43,689 nt of DNA from Candidatus Binatia bacterium (GTDB lineage: Bacteria; Eisenbacteria; RBG-16-71-46; SZUA-252). This document shows positions 8,645 to 31,110 of the stretch, piece by piece. The notes beneath the pieces were generated by a model that searched no databases, was not told the DNA's origin, and was given only the letters and a program-made list of their open reading frames with translations. The translations under genes and the position numbers were made by a program. How positions within the stretch are numbered: position 1 is the first letter of the stretch; each line of letters opens with the position of its first letter. The stretch covers positions 1 to 43,689 of the forward strand of contig DASQJL010000122.1 of assembly GCA_035631035.1 (NCBI GenBank), written 5' to 3'.

Positions 8645-8770
8645 GCGCTGGCGCGCTCCTTGCGTGAAACCGGTCGCCACTCCGGCCGAACACGGGCCGC
8701 ACCGCAACCGACGAAACGCCAATGGGGCAGAGCGCCTGGGGGAGTTGGCGCAGCGCCCCCCGGAGCCCAT

Positions 8771-10411
8771 ATGTTCAAAGAGCGACTCGCCGGCCCGGCC
8801 GCACTCGGCCTCGCCGCCCTGCTTTCCCTGATGCCCCTGGCCTGCGGCTCGCCGGGTCCCTCCCGCGCCGCGGTCACCCACAGCATCCAGACCCGCGTCG
8901 CCTCCGCCGTACCCACGGGAGCGATCGCCGGGGAGCGGCTGATCGAGCCGAAATCGGTCGGCCGCTTCTACAAGGCGCGCAAGTCGCTCATCGCGTGGGA
9001 CCACGACGACGTGCCCAAGATCATCGAGGCGATCCGCGGCGTCTACGCCGACGGGCTGAACCCCGACGATTACCACCTGGCCGCGATCCAGAAGCTGCAG
9101 AGCCAGCGGGAGCACGCGACCACGGCGGAGCTGGAGGCGGACCTGGACCTCCTGCTCTCCGACGCGATCGCGGCGGTCCTGGACCACGTCCGCTACGGGC
9201 GGGTGCGGCCCAAGTCGCTCGATCCGCGCTGGAACGTCGATCCGCGCGACGACATGCCGCCGCTGGATCAGACGCTCGCGGACGTGGCCAAGGCCAAGGA
9301 CCCGGTGGACGCGATCCAGCAGGCGAGGCCGGACCACTTCATCTACAAGGGCCTCGTGAACGCGCTGGCCCAGCTCCGGGAGATCGAGTCGAGCGGCGGA
9401 TGGGGCACGGTTCCCCCCGGCCGCGCCATCAAGCCGGGCTCCTCCGACCCGCGCGTTCCGCGCGTGCGCGCGCGGCTCGCCAAGAGCGGGGAGCTGGACC
9501 AGGCGGCCGCGACCGACTCGACCCGCGGCTATGACCGGGCGCTGGTGGACGCGGTGAAGCTCTTCCAGGCGCGTCACCGGCTGCCCGAGACGGGTGTGGT
9601 GGACAAGAAGACGATCGACGCGATGAACGTGACGGCCGCCGCCCGGGCCGCGCAGGTGCGTGTCAATCTCGAACGGGCGCGCTGGGTGCTGGGCGGCCTC
9701 AAGGGAGACTTCGTGCTCGTGAACCTCCCCGCGTTCAAGGCCTACTACATCCAGGGCGGAAAGAACGTGTGGGAGGGGCGGACCCAGATCGGCGAGGAAG
9801 CGAAGCAGACGCCGACCTTCCGCGCGCGCATGACCACGGTGGTGTTCAATCCCGACTGGACCGTGCCGCAGTCGATCGTGGCCGAGGAGATCTTCCCCGA
9901 CATGCAGTCGGGCAAGGACGGGCTCGGCTCGCGGCATCTCAAGGTCTACGACGGGAAGGGGAACGAGGTCGATCCCTCGTCGGTGGACTGGGGCTCGCCC
10001 GACAACTTCCCCTACACGCTGAAGCAGCCGCCGGGCGACGACAACGCGCTCGGCAAGGTGAAGCTGCTGTTCCCGAACAAGTACTCGATCTACATGCACG
10101 ATACGCCGAGCAAGCACCTCTTCGAGTCGTCCAGCCGGACCTTCAGCCATGGCTGCATCCGGACGGAGAACGTGCTCGACCTGGCCGAGATCCTCCTGCG
10201 CGGCCAGGACGGGTGGGACCACGCGAAGATCGAGGAGACGCTCGCGAGCGGAGAGACGCAGAACGTCGCGCTGGAGAACAAGCCGTACGTGCTGATCGTC
10301 TACTGGACGGTGTCCGTGGGGGCTTCGGGGGAGGTGCGCTACGCGGACGACATCTACGACCTGGACCAGCCGCTCCTGAACGCGCTCAACGCCGGGCCGA
10401 GGGCGGTCTAG
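8771..10411 (+). CDS. L,D-transpeptidase (YkuD catalytic domain, LdtD/YcbB type), lipoprotein
   Basis: A 546-residue envelope enzyme. The N-terminus has a lipoprotein signal with lipobox PLAC (Cys25), so it is predicted to be lipid-anchored on the periplasmic side. A scaffold region with DGLNPDDYHL, a PG-binding-1-like helix pair (DAVKLFQARHRLPETGVVDKK) and a YkuD domain (FVLVNLPAFKAYYI onward) follow in the LdtD order. The catalytic SHGCIRT motif has His460-Gly461-Cys462. Family members make 3-3 (L,D) peptidoglycan crosslinks or attach proteins to peptidoglycan. GGAG lies five bases before ATG 8771. A paralog with the same architecture is at 16541-18160. The next gene is convergent and only four bases away. 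Confidence 0.94.
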   Translation: MFKERLAGPAALGLAALLSLMPLACGSPGPSRAAVTHSIQTRVASAVPTGAIAGERLIEPKSVGRFYKARKSLIAWDHDDVPKIIEAIRGVYADGLNPDDYHLAAIQKLQSQREHATTAELEADLDLLLSDAIAAVLDHVRYGRVRPKSLDPRWNVDPRDDMPPLDQTLADVAKAKDPVDAIQQARPDHFIYKGLVNALAQLREIESSGGWGTVPPGRAIKPGSSDPRVPRVRARLAKSGELDQAAATDSTRGYDRALVDAVKLFQARHRLPETGVVDKKTIDAMNVTAAARAAQVRVNLERARWVLGGLKGDFVLVNLPAFKAYYIQGGKNVWEGRTQIGEEAKQTPTFRARMTTVVFNPDWTVPQSIVAEEIFPDMQSGKDGLGSRHLKVYDGKGNEVDPSSVDWGSPDNFPYTLKQPPGDDNALGKVKLLFPNKYSIYMHDTPSKHLFESSSRTFSHGCIRTENVLDLAEILLRGQDGWDHAKIEETLASGETQNVALENKPYVLIVYWTVSVGASGEVRYADDIYDLDQPLLNALNAGPRAV

Positions 10412-10415
10412 GGGC

Positions 10416-11126
10416 TCAGGGCCGGCGCGGCTCGAGCTGTGCCGTGAGGATCTGCTCCAGATTGGCCGCGACCTCGGCGACCGGCCTCGCGTACCAGTCG
10501 GGCTTGGGCATCGCGTGGTCCCACCGCGCCTTGGGCGGGTAGATGGCCGCGACGTCCCAGATGACGGTGCCCTCGGCGATCCGCTCGCTGTCCGGCATGA
10601 GCGCCGGATTCTCGACGATGTCCCGCACCATCCGCTGCGAGAGGGCCCGGTCCCGATCCCAGAACTGCCGCACCCGCCGGTCGGGCAGCCGATTATAGGT
10701 GCCGGGCGGCGGGCCGATCGAATCGGCCGGGCGGACCGGCTCCCAGACGACGAAGACGCGAAGCTTCCACGAGCGATGGCGGTTCAGCATGTCGGATACC
10801 GCGGAGGCCCCCCGCAGGCACATCCCTCAGGTGGGGGAGAGCAGGATCAGCACGCGCCGGTCGGAGGCGTCGGCGTTGAAGGCGTCGAGAAACCGCGGCA
10901 CCGTCAGGGCGACGGCGGGCGTCTGTCCACGGGGCACGGGCCCTCCCCGCGCCACTCCCGTGTCGGAGGGGGAGCCCTGCGCCTGCTCCGGCGCGAGCGA
11001 GGCCTGACGGGTCTCCTCGTGCCACCGGGCGTCGCGGAACGCGTCGCCGGCGATGATGACCGCCGCGCCGACGCCCATGAGGGCGAGCACCGCCATCGCG
11101 ATCGTCCATCCCTGCCGGCCGTTCAT
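10416..11126 (-). CDS. Thioredoxin-like protein with in-frame TGA, candidate selenoprotein (UxxC)
   Basis: Read leftward from ATG 11126 (GGAG seven bases upstream), the frame has a membrane anchor (WTIAMAVLALMGVGAAVIIAG, residues 7-27) and then a thioredoxin-like beta strand RVLILLSPT. It meets TGA at codon 100 (10827-10829) and continues in the same frame as GMCLRGASAV to a second TGA at 10416-10418. Read through, the product has 236 residues and the TGA falls where the first Cys of a CGMC redox motif would be, giving Sec-Gly-Met-Cys. Downstream features FVVWEPV, PDRRVRQFWDRDR and VIWDVAAIYPP continue the fold on the far side of the TGA, as in an uncharacterised SPTCxxCxxG thioredoxin-like family I recall. 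The alternative is a nonsense-mutated Cys gene. The selenocysteine machinery is not in this window. Confidence 0.72.
10799..10817 (-). promoter_or_regulatory. SECIS-like hairpin downstream of the in-frame TGA
   Basis: On the minus strand, nine bases after the TGA, CTGCGG (10817-10812) pairs with CCGCGG (10804-10799) around a GGGGCCT loop; one of the six pairs is a T-G wobble. The apical loop begins 16 bases after the TGA and opens with two guanosines. This agrees with the published bacterial SECIS pattern of a small stem-loop just downstream with a G at the first loop positions. Short GC hairpins are common in such DNA, so this supports but does not prove recoding. Confidence 0.5.
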
Positions 11127-11189
11127 TCGATGTCTCCAGCTTTCGCCATCCCGCTTCCCATGTCGGGGTGATCTTAGCACCGATCGCGG

Positions 11190-11195
11190 TATACT
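11190..11195 (+). promoter_or_regulatory. Possible -10 element for a leaderless hybrid kinase mRNA
   Basis: TATACT at 11190-11195 is the only good -10 hexamer in this short divergent gap and ends eight bases before GTG 11204. Transcription would start at or next to that GTG. No convincing -35 is seen 16-18 bases upstream and no Shine-Dalgarno precedes either possible GTG start. Confidence 0.3.
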
Positions 11196-11203
11196 CGTGC
11201 CCC

Positions 11204-13420
11204 GTGTTCCGTCCCCGTCGACACTGGCTGGCCGAGTTCCTCGTGGCCGTTCTCGCCGCATCCGCGGCGGCGTTCGCGCGCTCGTATCTGAGCCGCTATT
11301 TCGGCGAGCAGATCTCGATCCTCATCTTCGTTCCCGCGATCGCGTTCTCCGCATGGTTCGGCGGATTCGTTCCCGGCGTGCTGACCACGCTGCTCGCGGC
11401 AACGGCGCACATCCTGATGCCGCGAGAGGTCCCGCGCTCCCTCGTCGTCGATCCCCGGTCCGAGGAGATCCGGCTGGCCCTCCTCCTCGGGACCGGCATC
11501 CTCATCAGCTCGCTGTACGGCTCGCTGCGCTTCGTCCGCCGCGGCCTGGAGCGGCGGTTCGACCGCGCGCAGCTCATGCTGGAGGCCGCGCGCCGCCTCT
11601 CGGGAACGCTGGTCGTCGAGGAGATCCACGACGAGCTCCGCCAGATGATCGGCCGCGCGATCCCCTTCGACGGCATGATCGTCTCCTCCTACGACCACGA
11701 CTCCCACGTGGCGCGCTGCGTCTACGGCTGGGTGGGCGGACGGATGCTGGATCCCGCGTCGCTTCCGCCGCTCACGATCGATCCCGACGGGCAGGGGATG
11801 CAGACCGAGGTGATCCGGAGCGGCAAGGCGCGGCTCTTCGCCGATGTCCGCGCGCGCGTCCGCCGGCCGGGGCGCTACTTCGACGTGGACCCCGAGGGGC
11901 GCGTGCACGATCTGTCGCGCCCGGGGGCCGGGCCTCCCGGAGCGCGGTGCGCCATGATGGCGCCGCTCAAGCTGGAGGGGCGCGTCGTGGGCATCGTGCA
12001 GGTGATGAGCGACACGGCCGGCGCCTATCGCCGCGATCACCTGGCCTCGCTCGAGGCGATCGTGGCGCCGATCGCGGTGGCGCTGCAGAACGCGGAGCTC
12101 TACGCGCGGGCCAAGCGCGAGATCGCCGAGCGGCTCCGCGTGGAGCACGCCCTGACGCTGAGCGAGGAGCGGCTGCTCGAGGCCGACCGCCGCAAGGACG
12201 AGTTCCTGGCCACGCTCGCGCACGAGCTGCGCAATCCGCTCGCGCCGATCCGGAACGCGGTCGGGCTGCTTCGGAGCAGCGGCGCCGATCCCGCGACGAT
12301 CGCCTGGTCGGGCGAGGTGATCCAGCGCCAGGTGGGGCACATGGCCCGGCTTCTCGACGATCTCCTGGACGTGAGCCGGGTGAGTCGCGGGCGGCTCCGG
12401 CTGCGGACGGAGCGGGTGGACCTGGGTCAGGTCGTGCGGCACGCCGTGGAGGCGAGCCATCCCCTGATCGAGGCGGGGCGGCACCGCCTGGTGGTCGAGT
12501 TCCCGCCCCAGCCGATCCGGCTCGACGCCGATTCGACGCGGCTCGCGCAGGTCTTCTCGAATCTGCTGAACAACGCGGCGCGCTACAGCGAGCCGGGCAC
12601 GACGATCCACATCAGCGCTTCGGGTGAGGGAGGGGAAGCGGTGGTGCGGGTGACCGACCACGGGATCGGCATCATGCCCTCGATGCTGCCCCGGATCTTC
12701 GAGGCGTTCCTGCAGATCGACCGCTCGCTCGAGCGCTCGCAGGGCGGCCTGGGAATCGGGCTCACGCTGGTGAAGCAGATCGTGGAGCTGCACGGCGGGC
12801 ACGTCGAGGCGCACAGCGACGGCCCGGGGAAGGGGAGCGTGTTCACGGTGCGGCTGCCGATGCCCAACCCGGCGACGGTCGGTGTTGGGGCAGGCGAGGG
12901 CGGGACGGCCGGTGCTGGAATGGCCGGTGCCGGGGCGGAGTCCGACCGCTCGTCGTCGGATGGGTCGTCGTCCGGGTCGTCGTCGGATGGGTCGGCGCCT
13001 CGAGACCCTCGGCGGCGCGACGGGTCCGGCGACGGGACGCCCAGCGGACCGGCGCCGCGGCGCCGCATCCTGGTCGCCGACGATCTCGAGGACAGCGCGG
13101 CCAGCCTCGCGATGCTGCTGCAGATGCAGGGGCACGAGGTGCGCACCGCGCGCGATGGCGACGAGGCGGTGGGCGTGGCGCGGTCGTTTCTTCCCGAGAT
13201 CGTGCTGCTCGACATCGCCATGCCCAAGCTGAACGGATACGAAGCGGCGCGGCGGATCCTGGCCGAGAACCCCGCCAAGCGGCCGGTGCTGATCGCCCTG
13301 ACCGGATGGGGGCACGAAGAGAACCGCATGCGCACCCGCGAAGCCGGCTTCGACCATCACCTGGTGAAGCCGGTCGAGCCGGAAGCCTTGAATCGCCTGC
13401 TCGCGACGGTCGAGACGTAA
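11204..13420 (+). CDS. Hybrid sensor histidine kinase (DUF4118-like membrane domain, GAF, HisKA, HATPase, receiver)
   Basis: A protein of about 738 residues from GTG 11204 (an in-frame GTG at 11168 is an alternative). The N-terminal hydrophobic segments (FLVAVLAASAAAFA, ISILIFVPAIAFSAWFGGFV, GVLTTLLAATAHIL) resemble the KdpD-type DUF4118 bundle. A GAF-like domain follows, then HisKA with phospho-acceptor His340 in LAHELRNPLAP and a HATPase_c domain (LLNNAARYSE, VTDHGIGI, GGLGIGLTL). A Gly/Ala/Ser/Asp low-complexity linker joins a C-terminal receiver with acceptor Asp670 (VLLDIAMP). Autophosphorylation and internal phosphotransfer are expected; there is no DNA-binding output, so a separate response partner is needed. 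The divergent neighbour is the candidate selenoprotein. Confidence 0.92.
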   Translation: MFRPRRHWLAEFLVAVLAASAAAFARSYLSRYFGEQISILIFVPAIAFSAWFGGFVPGVLTTLLAATAHILMPREVPRSLVVDPRSEEIRLALLLGTGILISSLYGSLRFVRRGLERRFDRAQLMLEAARRLSGTLVVEEIHDELRQMIGRAIPFDGMIVSSYDHDSHVARCVYGWVGGRMLDPASLPPLTIDPDGQGMQTEVIRSGKARLFADVRARVRRPGRYFDVDPEGRVHDLSRPGAGPPGARCAMMAPLKLEGRVVGIVQVMSDTAGAYRRDHLASLEAIVAPIAVALQNAELYARAKREIAERLRVEHALTLSEERLLEADRRKDEFLATLAHELRNPLAPIRNAVGLLRSSGADPATIAWSGEVIQRQVGHMARLLDDLLDVSRVSRGRLRLRTERVDLGQVVRHAVEASHPLIEAGRHRLVVEFPPQPIRLDADSTRLAQVFSNLLNNAARYSEPGTTIHISASGEGGEAVVRVTDHGIGIMPSMLPRIFEAFLQIDRSLERSQGGLGIGLTLVKQIVELHGGHVEAHSDGPGKGSVFTVRLPMPNPATVGVGAGEGGTAGAGMAGAGAESDRSSSDGSSSGSSSDGSAPRDPRRRDGSGDGTPSGPAPRRRILVADDLEDSAASLAMLLQMQGHEVRTARDGDEAVGVARSFLPEIVLLDIAMPKLNGYEAARRILAENPAKRPVLIALTGWGHEENRMRTREAGFDHHLVKPVEPEALNRLLATVET
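12900..13040 (+). repeat. Low-complexity linker repeats inside the hybrid kinase
   Basis: Short direct repeats of GGTGCTGG / GGTGCCGG and then GGATGGGTCGTCGTCCGGGT-type units encode a Gly-Ala then Ser-Asp-Gly linker between the HATPase and receiver domains. The tract is in frame and likely to vary in length between strains. Confidence 0.6.
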
Positions 13421-14961: not shown

Positions 14962-15612
14962 CTATTTCCGGATCAGCTTGAACGCCGAGCCGCCCTTTCC
15001 GCTCCGGAAGTAGTTCACGATCCAGACCATCGCGAGCGGCTCGAGGTAGCGGGCGTTCTCGATGCCGCCGAGATCGACGGTGTCGGGCCATCCGAACGCT
15101 TCCAGCACCTGCCGCACCTCGTTCTTGGCGCCATCGTCGTTGCCGGCGATGAACATGGTGGGCGGTCCGCCGGGATAGCTCGGCCGGAACATGTCGGGAT
15201 TGCCGACGATGTTGAACGCCTTGACCACGCGGGCCTGGGGCAGCCAGCGCTGGACGTTCTCTCCCGCGGAGTCGCCGCCCGCGACGGCGAGCACGGGGGG
15301 GCGGCCGGGGACGCTGAAGTCGAGCGGGTTGGTCGTGTCGATCACGACCTTGCCCACGAGGTTCTCGGGCTTGGCCAGCTTGATCGCGTTCTCGGTGCCG
15401 CTCCACGCGGTCGCGAGCACCGCGAGCTGCGCGTGCGCGGCCGCCTCGGCGAAGGTTCCCGACGAGGTCTTGCCCCCCGCACCCTTTCGCCACTCCTTCA
15501 CGTCGTCTCGATCCGGCTCGCGGCTCCCCATCTTCACGTCGTGGCCGAGCGCCGCGAAGCCGGCGCCGATCGCCTTCCCCACGCTTCCCGATCCCAGGAT
15601 TCCGATCTTCAT
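14962..15612 (-). CDS. NADPH-dependent F420 reductase-like NAD(P)-binding protein
   Basis: A 216-residue protein from ATG 15612. It opens with a Rossmann fingerprint MKIGILGSGSVG (GxGxxG at residues 7-12) and a GHDVKMGSREPDR second strand that fits NADP preference. VLATAWSGTENAI, VVIDTTNPLDF, RVVKAFNIVGNPDMF and PTMFIAGND follow the F420-oxidoreductase/NAD-binding-2 order. Length matches stand-alone FNO-like reductases, which shuttle hydride between NADPH and a deazaflavin or another acceptor. No F420 biosynthesis gene is present here, so the physiological partner is uncertain. Confidence 0.85.
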   Translation of the reverse strand: MKIGILGSGSVGKAIGAGFAALGHDVKMGSREPDRDDVKEWRKGAGGKTSSGTFAEAAAHAQLAVLATAWSGTENAIKLAKPENLVGKVVIDTTNPLDFSVPGRPPVLAVAGGDSAGENVQRWLPQARVVKAFNIVGNPDMFRPSYPGGPPTMFIAGNDDGAKNEVRQVLEAFGWPDTVDLGGIENARYLEPLAMVWIVNYFRSGKGGSAFKLIRK

Positions 15613-15745
15613 CGAATCGCCTTTCGTTGAGCGCGGGGTTCGCGGCCCGCGCGGTTCCGGCGCTTCGGAGCGCCAACTGTCGACCGACGCTTTCCTTAGA
15701 CGGGGAGGGTACGTGGGCCGATTCGGGGGCTGCTATTCTTTTTCC

Positions 15746-16468
15746 ATGAGATCCGGTGCTCTCTCATGGGGCTGGCCGTCGCGGCTGGCCCTCGCCTTGC
15801 TCGCAATAGTCGCCGGGTCGACGGCGGCGGCGGGGGACTGGAACCGCGCGACGCTCCCCGCCTCCATCCGCGATCGCGTCCACTTCGCCGCGCGCGACGT
15901 CCCGGTGTTTCCCATGGACGATGCGCGGCTCCTGGATGCGAAGCGGTGGCCGAAAGCCATGACGATCGGCGGGGTGCCTTGCGCGCTCCGCATTCACGCG
16001 TGGGACGACGACGACGCGATCGCGGTCGCGTCGCTCGAGGACGTCGAGGAGCACAGCCGGGTGATGCTGTTCTACGACACGACACGATCGCGGTGGGACG
16101 CCGCCAACGCCGGCTGGGGTCCGCGCTATCTCTGGAACGAGAAGGGGAAGCTGATCCAGCGGATCTGGTACGAGCCGGACAGCACCCGCCTCGTGACGCA
16201 CGACTACACCTACTACAAGAATGGGAAGCTGCTGGGCTATTCCCGGCGTGAGGAAAAGCGCCGGTCCGCGCGGATCAGCGGGAGCCCCTATCAGTTCCTG
16301 TCCGAGTTCTTCTCCAAGGACGGCCGGCTGATCGCGGTCGCCTACGAGGACATGACCGCCCGTTCCCGCGATTCGGCGTACGCCTGGATGGGAACGGTCG
16401 TCCCCTACGACGAGTTCCGCATGAAGACCCACGTTCTCTACTCGAGCGCGCATCCCGGGAGTCGCTGA
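15746..16468 (+). CDS. Uncharacterised exported protein with GKLxxxxY-type strand repeats (paralog of 34594-35301)
   Basis: A 240-residue exported protein from ATG 15746. A signal peptide (ALALLAIVAGSTAAAG) ends near residue 29. The rest has no family I recognise. Its C-terminal half shows repeated short strands of the kind YLWNEKGKLIQRIWY, DYTYYKNGKLLGYSRR and FFSKDGRLIAVAYE, reminiscent of YD/MORN-like antiparallel sheets. The protein at 34594-35301 shows the same series in the same order (VWDGQNALIERSY, QYRGNGLVWAYRHR, YYDPDGKLAGFSVE), so the two form a small family in this genome. A role outside the cytoplasm is inferred; nothing more specific can be said. Confidence 0.75.
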   Translation: MRSGALSWGWPSRLALALLAIVAGSTAAAGDWNRATLPASIRDRVHFAARDVPVFPMDDARLLDAKRWPKAMTIGGVPCALRIHAWDDDDAIAVASLEDVEEHSRVMLFYDTTRSRWDAANAGWGPRYLWNEKGKLIQRIWYEPDSTRLVTHDYTYYKNGKLLGYSRREEKRRSARISGSPYQFLSEFFSKDGRLIAVAYEDMTARSRDSAYAWMGTVVPYDEFRMKTHVLYSSAHPGSR

Positions 16469-16540: not shown

Positions 16541-18160
16541 ATGGTTTCGCTACGGAACGTTTCCATCCCTGCCCTCTTCGTCCTGCTCATCCTGGCCACG
16601 GCCAACTATGCGCCGGCCCCGCCCGGCGTGACCGAGCGGGTGCAGGTGCGCCTGCCCGGGCTGGAGCAGGGCTCGCTCACGCTGCGCGGGGAGCGGCTCT
16701 GGCAGCCGAAGGCGCTGGGGCGCTTCTATCGGGCGCGCCAGGCCCGTCCCGCCTGGAGCGGCCGCGACGCCGAGGACATCGTGCAGGCGATCCGCGGCGT
16801 GACGGCCGACGGTCTCAATCCCGCCGACTACCACCTGAAGGCGATCGAGCAGATGGTGTCCGAGCGGGACAACGGCTCGAGCCCCGAGCTGGAAGGGGAC
16901 CTGGACATCCTGCTCTCCGACGCGGTGGCGGCGATGGCGGACCACGTGCGCTATGGGCGCGTGCGGCCCGTGACGCTGAATGCCGCCTGGAATGTGGATC
17001 CGCGCGAGGGAGCGCCCCCGGTGGAGCAGCAGCTGGCCGAGATCCGGTCGGCGCCCGACCTGTCGCGGGCGATCGAGGCGCGTCGGCCCAACCACTTCAT
17101 CTACAAGGGACTCGTGCGCGAGCTGGCGTCGCTGCGCGACATTGCCGACCAGGGCGGCTGGCCGCGCGTCGCCTCGGGGCGCCCCATCGCGCCCGGCGCC
17201 CGCGACGAGCGGGTCGCCGCCGTGCGGCGCCGGCTGGAGGCGAGCGGGGAATTCCGCGGAGGCGCGGGCGCCGACCCGGCGCACTACGACGCCGCGCTCG
17301 CCAAAGCGGTACGCCGCTTCCAGGATCTGCATCGGATCCCCGCGGACGGCGTGATTGGTCCCACGACGGTCGCCGCGATGAACGTGCCGGTGCAGGAGCG
17401 GATCAACCAGGTCCGCGCGAATCTCGAGCGGGCCCGCTGGGTGCTGAACGGCCTCCGCGACGACTTCCTGCTCGTGAACATCCCGGCCTTCAAGGCCTAC
17501 CTGATCCGCGACCAGCGCCGGATCTGGGAGGCGCGGACGCAGGTCGGCGACGAGTACATGAAGACGCCGACCTTCCGCTCGACGATGCAGACCGTGGTCT
17601 TCAATCCCGACTGGACGCTGCCTCCCACGATCGCGAAATACGAGGTGCTGGACGCCATGCGGAACGGCGACAACGTGCTCATGAAGTGGGGGCTCAGGAT
17701 CTACGACCGGCGCGGACGCGAGGTCCACCCCGCCTCGGTCGACTGGAACGCGTCGCCCGACCGCTTCCCCTACACGCTGCGGCAGCTTCCGGGCTCGCGC
17801 AATCCGCTCGGCCGCGTCAAGTTCCTCTTCCCGAACAAGTACTCCATCTACCTCCACGACACGCCGAACCAGCGCCTCTTCGCGGCGCGCGACCGGACCT
17901 TCAGCCACGGGTGCATCCGCGTGGAGAACGCGATGGAGCTGGCGGATCTCCTGCTTCGCGACCAGATCGGAGCCGGCGGCGTCCGGAACGCCGTGGCGGA
18001 GGGTGCGACGCGGAACGTGGCGCTGGAGCACCCGATCCCGGTGCTGATCGTCTACTGGACAGTCAGCGTCGGGGCAAAGGGCGACGTGCACTACGCGAAC
18101 GATATCTATGGATACGACGCGCCGCTGGCCGCGGCGCTGAACGCGGGGCGGAGGGGATAG
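16541..18160 (+). CDS. L,D-transpeptidase (YkuD catalytic domain, LdtD/YcbB type), second copy
   Basis: A 539-residue paralog of the enzyme at 8771-10411, with the same blocks: DGLNPADYHL, HVRYGRVRP, NHFIYKGLV, a PG-binding-like segment (AVRRFQDLHRIPADG), FLLVNIPAFKAYLI, VVFNPDWTLP and the catalytic SHGCIRV with His456 and Cys458. The N-terminus is an uncleaved anchor or ordinary signal peptide (ALFVLLILATANYAPA) with no lipobox, unlike the first copy, so the two may sit differently in the envelope. GAGG precedes ATG 16541 by about eight bases. Expected activity is 3-3 crosslinking of peptidoglycan in the periplasm. Confidence 0.94.
   Translation: MVSLRNVSIPALFVLLILATANYAPAPPGVTERVQVRLPGLEQGSLTLRGERLWQPKALGRFYRARQARPAWSGRDAEDIVQAIRGVTADGLNPADYHLKAIEQMVSERDNGSSPELEGDLDILLSDAVAAMADHVRYGRVRPVTLNAAWNVDPREGAPPVEQQLAEIRSAPDLSRAIEARRPNHFIYKGLVRELASLRDIADQGGWPRVASGRPIAPGARDERVAAVRRRLEASGEFRGGAGADPAHYDAALAKAVRRFQDLHRIPADGVIGPTTVAAMNVPVQERINQVRANLERARWVLNGLRDDFLLVNIPAFKAYLIRDQRRIWEARTQVGDEYMKTPTFRSTMQTVVFNPDWTLPPTIAKYEVLDAMRNGDNVLMKWGLRIYDRRGREVHPASVDWNASPDRFPYTLRQLPGSRNPLGRVKFLFPNKYSIYLHDTPNQRLFAARDRTFSHGCIRVENAMELADLLLRDQIGAGGVRNAVAEGATRNVALEHPIPVLIVYWTVSVGAKGDVHYANDIYGYDAPLAAALNAGRRG

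Positions 18161-29676: not shown

Positions 29677-31110
<1,434 letters not shown>

Follow-up and report, generated by a model that had tools for sequence, protein, structure and literature searches.

A minus-strand gene in the stretch of DNA analysed here (43,689 nucleotides, referred to below as the window) is almost certainly a genuine selenoprotein gene, in which UGA codon 100 is read as selenocysteine (Sec). It represents an apparently uncatalogued selenoprotein family that is present in Acidobacteriota and in the phylum of the window, and whose genes are cut short at the UGA when translated with the standard code. The recoding site, the Sec machinery, the SECIS hairpin, the fold and the linkage to MerT were established computationally; export, membrane anchoring and redox activity of the Sec-Cys pair are properties that the protein would be expected to have.

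The frame that opens at ATG 11126 contains a single in-frame TGA, at codon 100, and the read-through protein runs RRVLILLSPT-U-GMCLRGASAV around this codon (Table 1). The initial annotation had described a frame that is open on either side of a lone TGA at 10827-10829, with an anchor and a ribosome-binding site upstream; translation and coordinates agree with the first statement, and both upstream elements were located. The SECIS hairpin, the exchange of Sec and Cys across the family and the link to MerT-like transporters are additions to that annotation. The hydrophobic segment has a mean Kyte-Doolittle value of 2.48 across residues 9-27, and the order of parts in the protein is a short N-terminus, the hydrophobic helix, a linker and then the domain that bears UGMC. 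The gene is solitary, without a MerT neighbour, and both of its neighbours lie on the plus strand. The L,D-transpeptidase-like neighbour has a similar (YcbB-like) counterpart about 6 kb away on the same strand (16541-18160, likewise named from its translation only). Two other TGA codons of the window were considered as further UGA/SECIS candidates and rejected: the one at 16466-16468 is the normal end of the gene at 15191-16468 and is followed by a terminator-like hairpin, and the one at 30404-30406 lies in a short frame with a weak hairpin.

Table 1. Features of the selenoprotein gene and its immediate neighbours (positions in the window)
Feature	Position	Strand	Remarks
Selenoprotein gene	10416..11126	-	236 residues including Sec; stop TGA 10416-10418
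Ribosome-binding site GGAG	11134..11137	-	7 nt before ATG 11126
Hydrophobic helix, residues about 8-28, predicted membrane anchor	11043..11105	-	Hydropathy; AF2 helix 3-44
Thioredoxin-like domain, residues about 75-232	10431..10904	-	AF2 and Foldseek
Sec codon UGA, residue 100, first position of UxxC	10827..10829	-	64-locus codon census
Second Cys of UxxC, residue 103, TGC	10818..10820	-	Cys in 62/64 loci
SECIS-type hairpin CUGCGGGG-GGC-CUCCGCGG	10799..10817	-	8 bp, 3-nt loop, 17 nt after UGA
Histidine-kinase-like gene	11168-13420	+	Named from translation only
L,D-transpeptidase-like gene	8660-10411	+	Named from translation only

The contig collection yielded seven homologs, whose titles all name Acidobacteriota, and each of them has TGA at this codon. 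Further homologs were drawn from the window's phylum and from a sample of 396 genomes of the phylum of KBS 96, and a census of the codon at the Sec site in 64 loci of the two phyla found TGA in 51, TGC in 7, TGT in 6 and any other codon in none. The resulting Sec:Cys ratio in the sampled loci, about 4:1 (51:13), may be biased, because the profile behind the census came from Sec members and two phyla were covered. The census bears out the earlier proposal that the TGA occupies the first position of a CxxC motif (UGMC), and the homologous proteins all continue through this site, none of them ending there; neither TAA nor TAG occurs inside the matched cores of the 64 loci. The residues past the TGA had been read as a continuation of the same fold, and the homologs are indeed conserved far downstream of it, with nearly invariant W54, W82, W116 and D117 in alignment A7. 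On the tree, parsimony counts nine switches between Sec and Cys, at least five of which are forced by well supported branches, and both states coexist in genome G221, which has two Sec copies beside a single Cys copy. The second motif position is Cys in all loci except L113 and L114, which are close relatives and have TGA there as well (UPKU, UxxU), possibly a double-Sec version of the motif as judged from its codons; the hairpin in these two loci seems displaced by 3 nt. A search of viral contigs and plasmids for relatives found none.

These results bear on three other readings of the TGA. One is that it is a real stop, leaving either a pseudogene or two genes, a membrane peptide of 99 aa and a second ORF. 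An ATG at 10823, one codon past the TGA, does open an ORF of 135 aa, but a start-like codon lies within four codons past the TGA in just 11 of the 51 TGA loci, at differing positions, and a stop does not account for the same-site TGA in 51 loci of two phyla, swapped only for Cys codons. Together with the SECIS covariation and the full Sec machinery described below, this makes a real stop very unlikely. A nonsense or sequencing error limited to the window's assembly might be suspected in a draft genome of 135 contigs. For practical purposes it is ruled out by the same TGA in dozens of independent assemblies, including an Acidobacteriaceae KBS 96 scaffold (L025), where the motif reads LLLSPT-U-TVC. 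The initial annotation held that a random nonsense mutation would hit this position only rarely, and the 51 TGA codons and 13 Cys codons at this site show that chance is not the cause. Finally, the whole genome could use TGA for an amino acid such as Trp, or readthrough could insert some residue other than Sec; either would likewise keep the frame open. No positive support for this was found, and it is extremely improbable: the window gene and many of its homologs themselves terminate in TGA, all 13 homologs that lack TGA have Cys in its place, and the gene comes with a SECIS hairpin and its genome with a Sec-specific tRNA.

The published model of bacterial SECIS elements calls for a hairpin 16-37 nt after the UGA, a loop of 3-9 nt with G in its first two positions, and an energy of -7.5 kcal/mol or lower (PMC13188914). 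The window hairpin satisfies this model, since its loop starts with GG and its energy is -10.8 kcal/mol at the spacing and size listed in Table 1. Among the homologs, 74.5% of the TGA loci reach the threshold of -7.5 kcal/mol, about a quarter thus falling short of it, and not one Cys locus out of 13 does (Fisher 8e-7). P-values of this kind are inexact because the rows are related; the same relatedness is shared by the Cys loci and the slid positions used as controls. At control positions within the same genes, 6.5% pass. Compared with synonymous shuffles, the mean z-score is -1.99 in the TGA loci and +0.06 in the Cys loci, so that codon choice favours the hairpin in the former and not in the latter. 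Across the alignment of the 51 TGA loci, pairing in the 8-bp helix amounts to 82.6%, and 68 cells are altered on both sides of the stem; compensatory examples include UGCGG/CCGCA, UGCAG/CUGCA, UUCGG/CCGAA and UUCGAG/CUCGAA. The covariation score is 0.533, compared with 0.239+-0.021 for column shuffles and at most 0.208 for slid positions. The folding energy of a 61-nt stretch with the UGA inside is ordinary (z 0.20), which we ascribe to total energy masking the hairpin in GC-rich DNA. An Rfam search of the window gave no match.

The machinery for decoding UGA as Sec, whose presence in the same genome had been proposed as a check, is all there. The genome of the window (3.35 Mb in 135 contigs, 97.4% complete) contains selA (557 bits), selB (359 bits), selD (355 bits) and a tRNA-Sec gene (69.7 bits) with the anticodon TCA according to ARAGORN. 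Its SelD (L017, G000:C123:1160-2086) has one in-frame TGA of its own, in the context VSCAG-U-AAK. This agrees with the UxxK motif catalogued for SelD proteins that contain Sec, and SelD is itself a predicted selenoprotein in this organism. Use of Sec appears to be ordinary in the lineage, because selA scores above the cut-off in 40 of 47 genomes of the window's phylum. Hosts of the homologs likewise carry selA, in 7 of 7 cases for the contig collection and in 42 of 46 for the further hosts from the phylum of KBS 96. The four without a match, G394 with a Cys copy and G331, G169 and G205 with TGA copies, are probably incomplete assemblies. One Cys member (L117, G151:C8) lies about 4 kb from selA (G151:C8:370482-371840).

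An AF2 model built from 8 sequences contains a thioredoxin-like domain with pLDDT of about 95 across most of the core. Its elements (E90-96, H101-116, E122-128, a helix, E152-156, E192-196 and a helix) follow the beta-alpha-beta-alpha-beta-beta-alpha pattern of thioredoxins, in which CxxC opens the first core helix, and UxxC at residues 100-103 stands at the start of that helix. Foldseek places 2b5x (YkuV) first (E 1.4e-4), followed by ResA, TlpA, DsbE/CcmG and peroxiredoxin folds. Sequence searches of the PDB returned weak thioredoxin-type matches only, and the Pfam models for Thioredoxin (PF00085), TlpA and redoxin did not match the window protein; 3 of the 64 cores match Pfam Thioredoxin weakly (best E 4.6e-4). 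NCBIfam models, including NF045683, gave no match to the core Sec domain of the window, and in the 64 cores pdi_dom alone was found, weakly (E 0.004), in four. None of the 119 prokaryotic selenoprotein families tabulated in 2026 (PMC13188914) could be equated with this one when the entries were compared by family model and motif rather than sequence by sequence.

A MerT-like gene or domain accompanies 17 of the 51 Sec loci and 4 of the 13 Cys loci (21/64, a few of the matches being weak), mostly immediately upstream on the same strand; two thirds of the loci, including the window, have no such partner. In the clade of the window protein, 8 of 16 members have one. The order in L020 is merR, merT-like gene, Sec gene, zf_CopZ, and merR occurs in some of the loci though not in the window. 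Direct fusions also exist, of MerT with the Sec domain in L019 and L024 and of MerT, HMA and the Sec domain in L029 and L030, and in the model of the L019 fusion a bundle of membrane helices precedes the same thioredoxin domain. In the closest of the MerT-like matches, TM1 carries SCCLP. In the genome of the window PF02411 gave no match, but the control also matched nowhere, so that this does not establish absence. In two loci (L022:4235-4573 and L098:6900-7208) a DUF2703-like protein, assigned by a weak Pfam match, precedes the MerT-like gene. Three members (L030, L032 and L033, the genes of L082, L085 and L086) have an extra N-terminal domain of unassigned kind, LAGQWRG...VAGRWTGQFDLP..., ahead of the Sec domain.

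The C-terminus of MerT, past its last helix, presumably faces the periplasm. Because of this orientation, and because other members (L028, L032, L035) have lipoprotein-like N-termini, the Sec domain is most likely extracytoplasmic, and the window protein would be anchored N-in/C-out. In the model that we favour, SelB and tRNA-Sec decode the UGA at codon 100, aided by the SECIS hairpin directly downstream, and the product would be a thioredoxin-fold protein that is anchored in the membrane, lies outside the cytoplasm and has UGMC as its active site. Thiol/selenol exchange at its Sec-Cys pair would be expected to transfer electrons or soft metal ions.

In the MerT-linked branch the Sec protein most likely would work beside the transporter. 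Selenols bind Hg(II) very tightly, and the selenol/thiol pair may take up this ion, or a soft metal like it, and deliver it to the transporter; alternatively, the Sec protein may keep the Cys pair of the transporter reduced, and the analysis cannot separate the two. Any metal role in this branch is given somewhat less than an even chance. At about even odds, the selenoprotein instead serves only as a periplasmic enzyme, either a disulfide reductase or one of the peroxidase type, its MerT neighbourhood reflecting a general demand for thiol redox activity and not metal transfer. The fold neighbours (ResA/TlpA/DsbE and peroxiredoxins) and the two thirds of loci without MerT, the window among them, are as expected of such an enzyme, while the tight upstream linkage and the direct MerT/HMA fusions in several branches of the tree speak for a closer tie to the transporter. 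Since so many loci have no MerT partner, a metal role is not general on present evidence; for the solitary copy in the window we infer the oxidoreductase part alone, and a metal role there would be a guess. A broader proposal, possible but on balance doubtful, is that Sec prevails and is probably ancestral in an exported Sec-thioredoxin family, with Cys derived several times, and that in the mer-like branch this protein replaces or supplements MerP as the soft-metal partner of MerT-like transporters.

A predominance of Sec over Cys in the sampled loci is unusual, and a family of this kind would be hard to detect by methods that depend on Cys homologs. The deep-Sep pipeline, for instance, discards a candidate unless it has a known Sec homolog or two or more Cys matches in the top ten (PMC12013277). 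The family may have been overlooked so far because current pipelines require Cys homologs. The MerT fusions tie selenol chemistry to soft-metal transport, a connection that could be tested in a cultured acidobacterium.

Four known systems come closest. Catalogued UxxC selenoproteins (Sec-Trx PF00085, the TlpA/redoxin type and PF13098; PMC13188914) share the thioredoxin fold, Sec at the N-terminal position of CxxC, and the combination of UGA and SECIS; the present family differs in its own conserved SPTUxxC, VWEP and WD motifs and in being predicted to be membrane-anchored or a lipoprotein. ResA/TlpA/CcmG (DsbE) and YkuV share the thioredoxin domain and provide the best structural matches (2b5x, 1su9, 3ios), and ResA/TlpA/CcmG are also membrane-anchored and extracytoplasmic, as predicted here. 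Identity to these proteins is however only about 10-20%, Sec replaces the first Cys, the family has motifs of its own, and no cytochrome c maturation genes were seen among the neighbours scanned. The other two systems concern mercury transport. The N-terminal MerT and HMA parts of the fused members match MerTP or NF045683 (MerT/CopZ fusion-like heavy metal transport selenoprotein), but Sec here lies in an additional C-terminal thioredoxin-like domain, unlike in NF045683 and the putative mercuric transport selenoprotein (PF02411, C/SxxU), and the HMA CxxC of L029 and L030 is encoded by Cys. The arrangement of a small extracytoplasmic protein beside a MerT-like membrane protein, in some cases together with merR and CopZ, resembles the MerP/MerT uptake pair, except that the small protein is a Sec thioredoxin and not an HMA domain. 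Thioredoxin-like UxxC selenoproteins are a known kind, and it is the domain family of the window, its Sec-rich make-up (51:13) and the MerT fusions that appear to be new.
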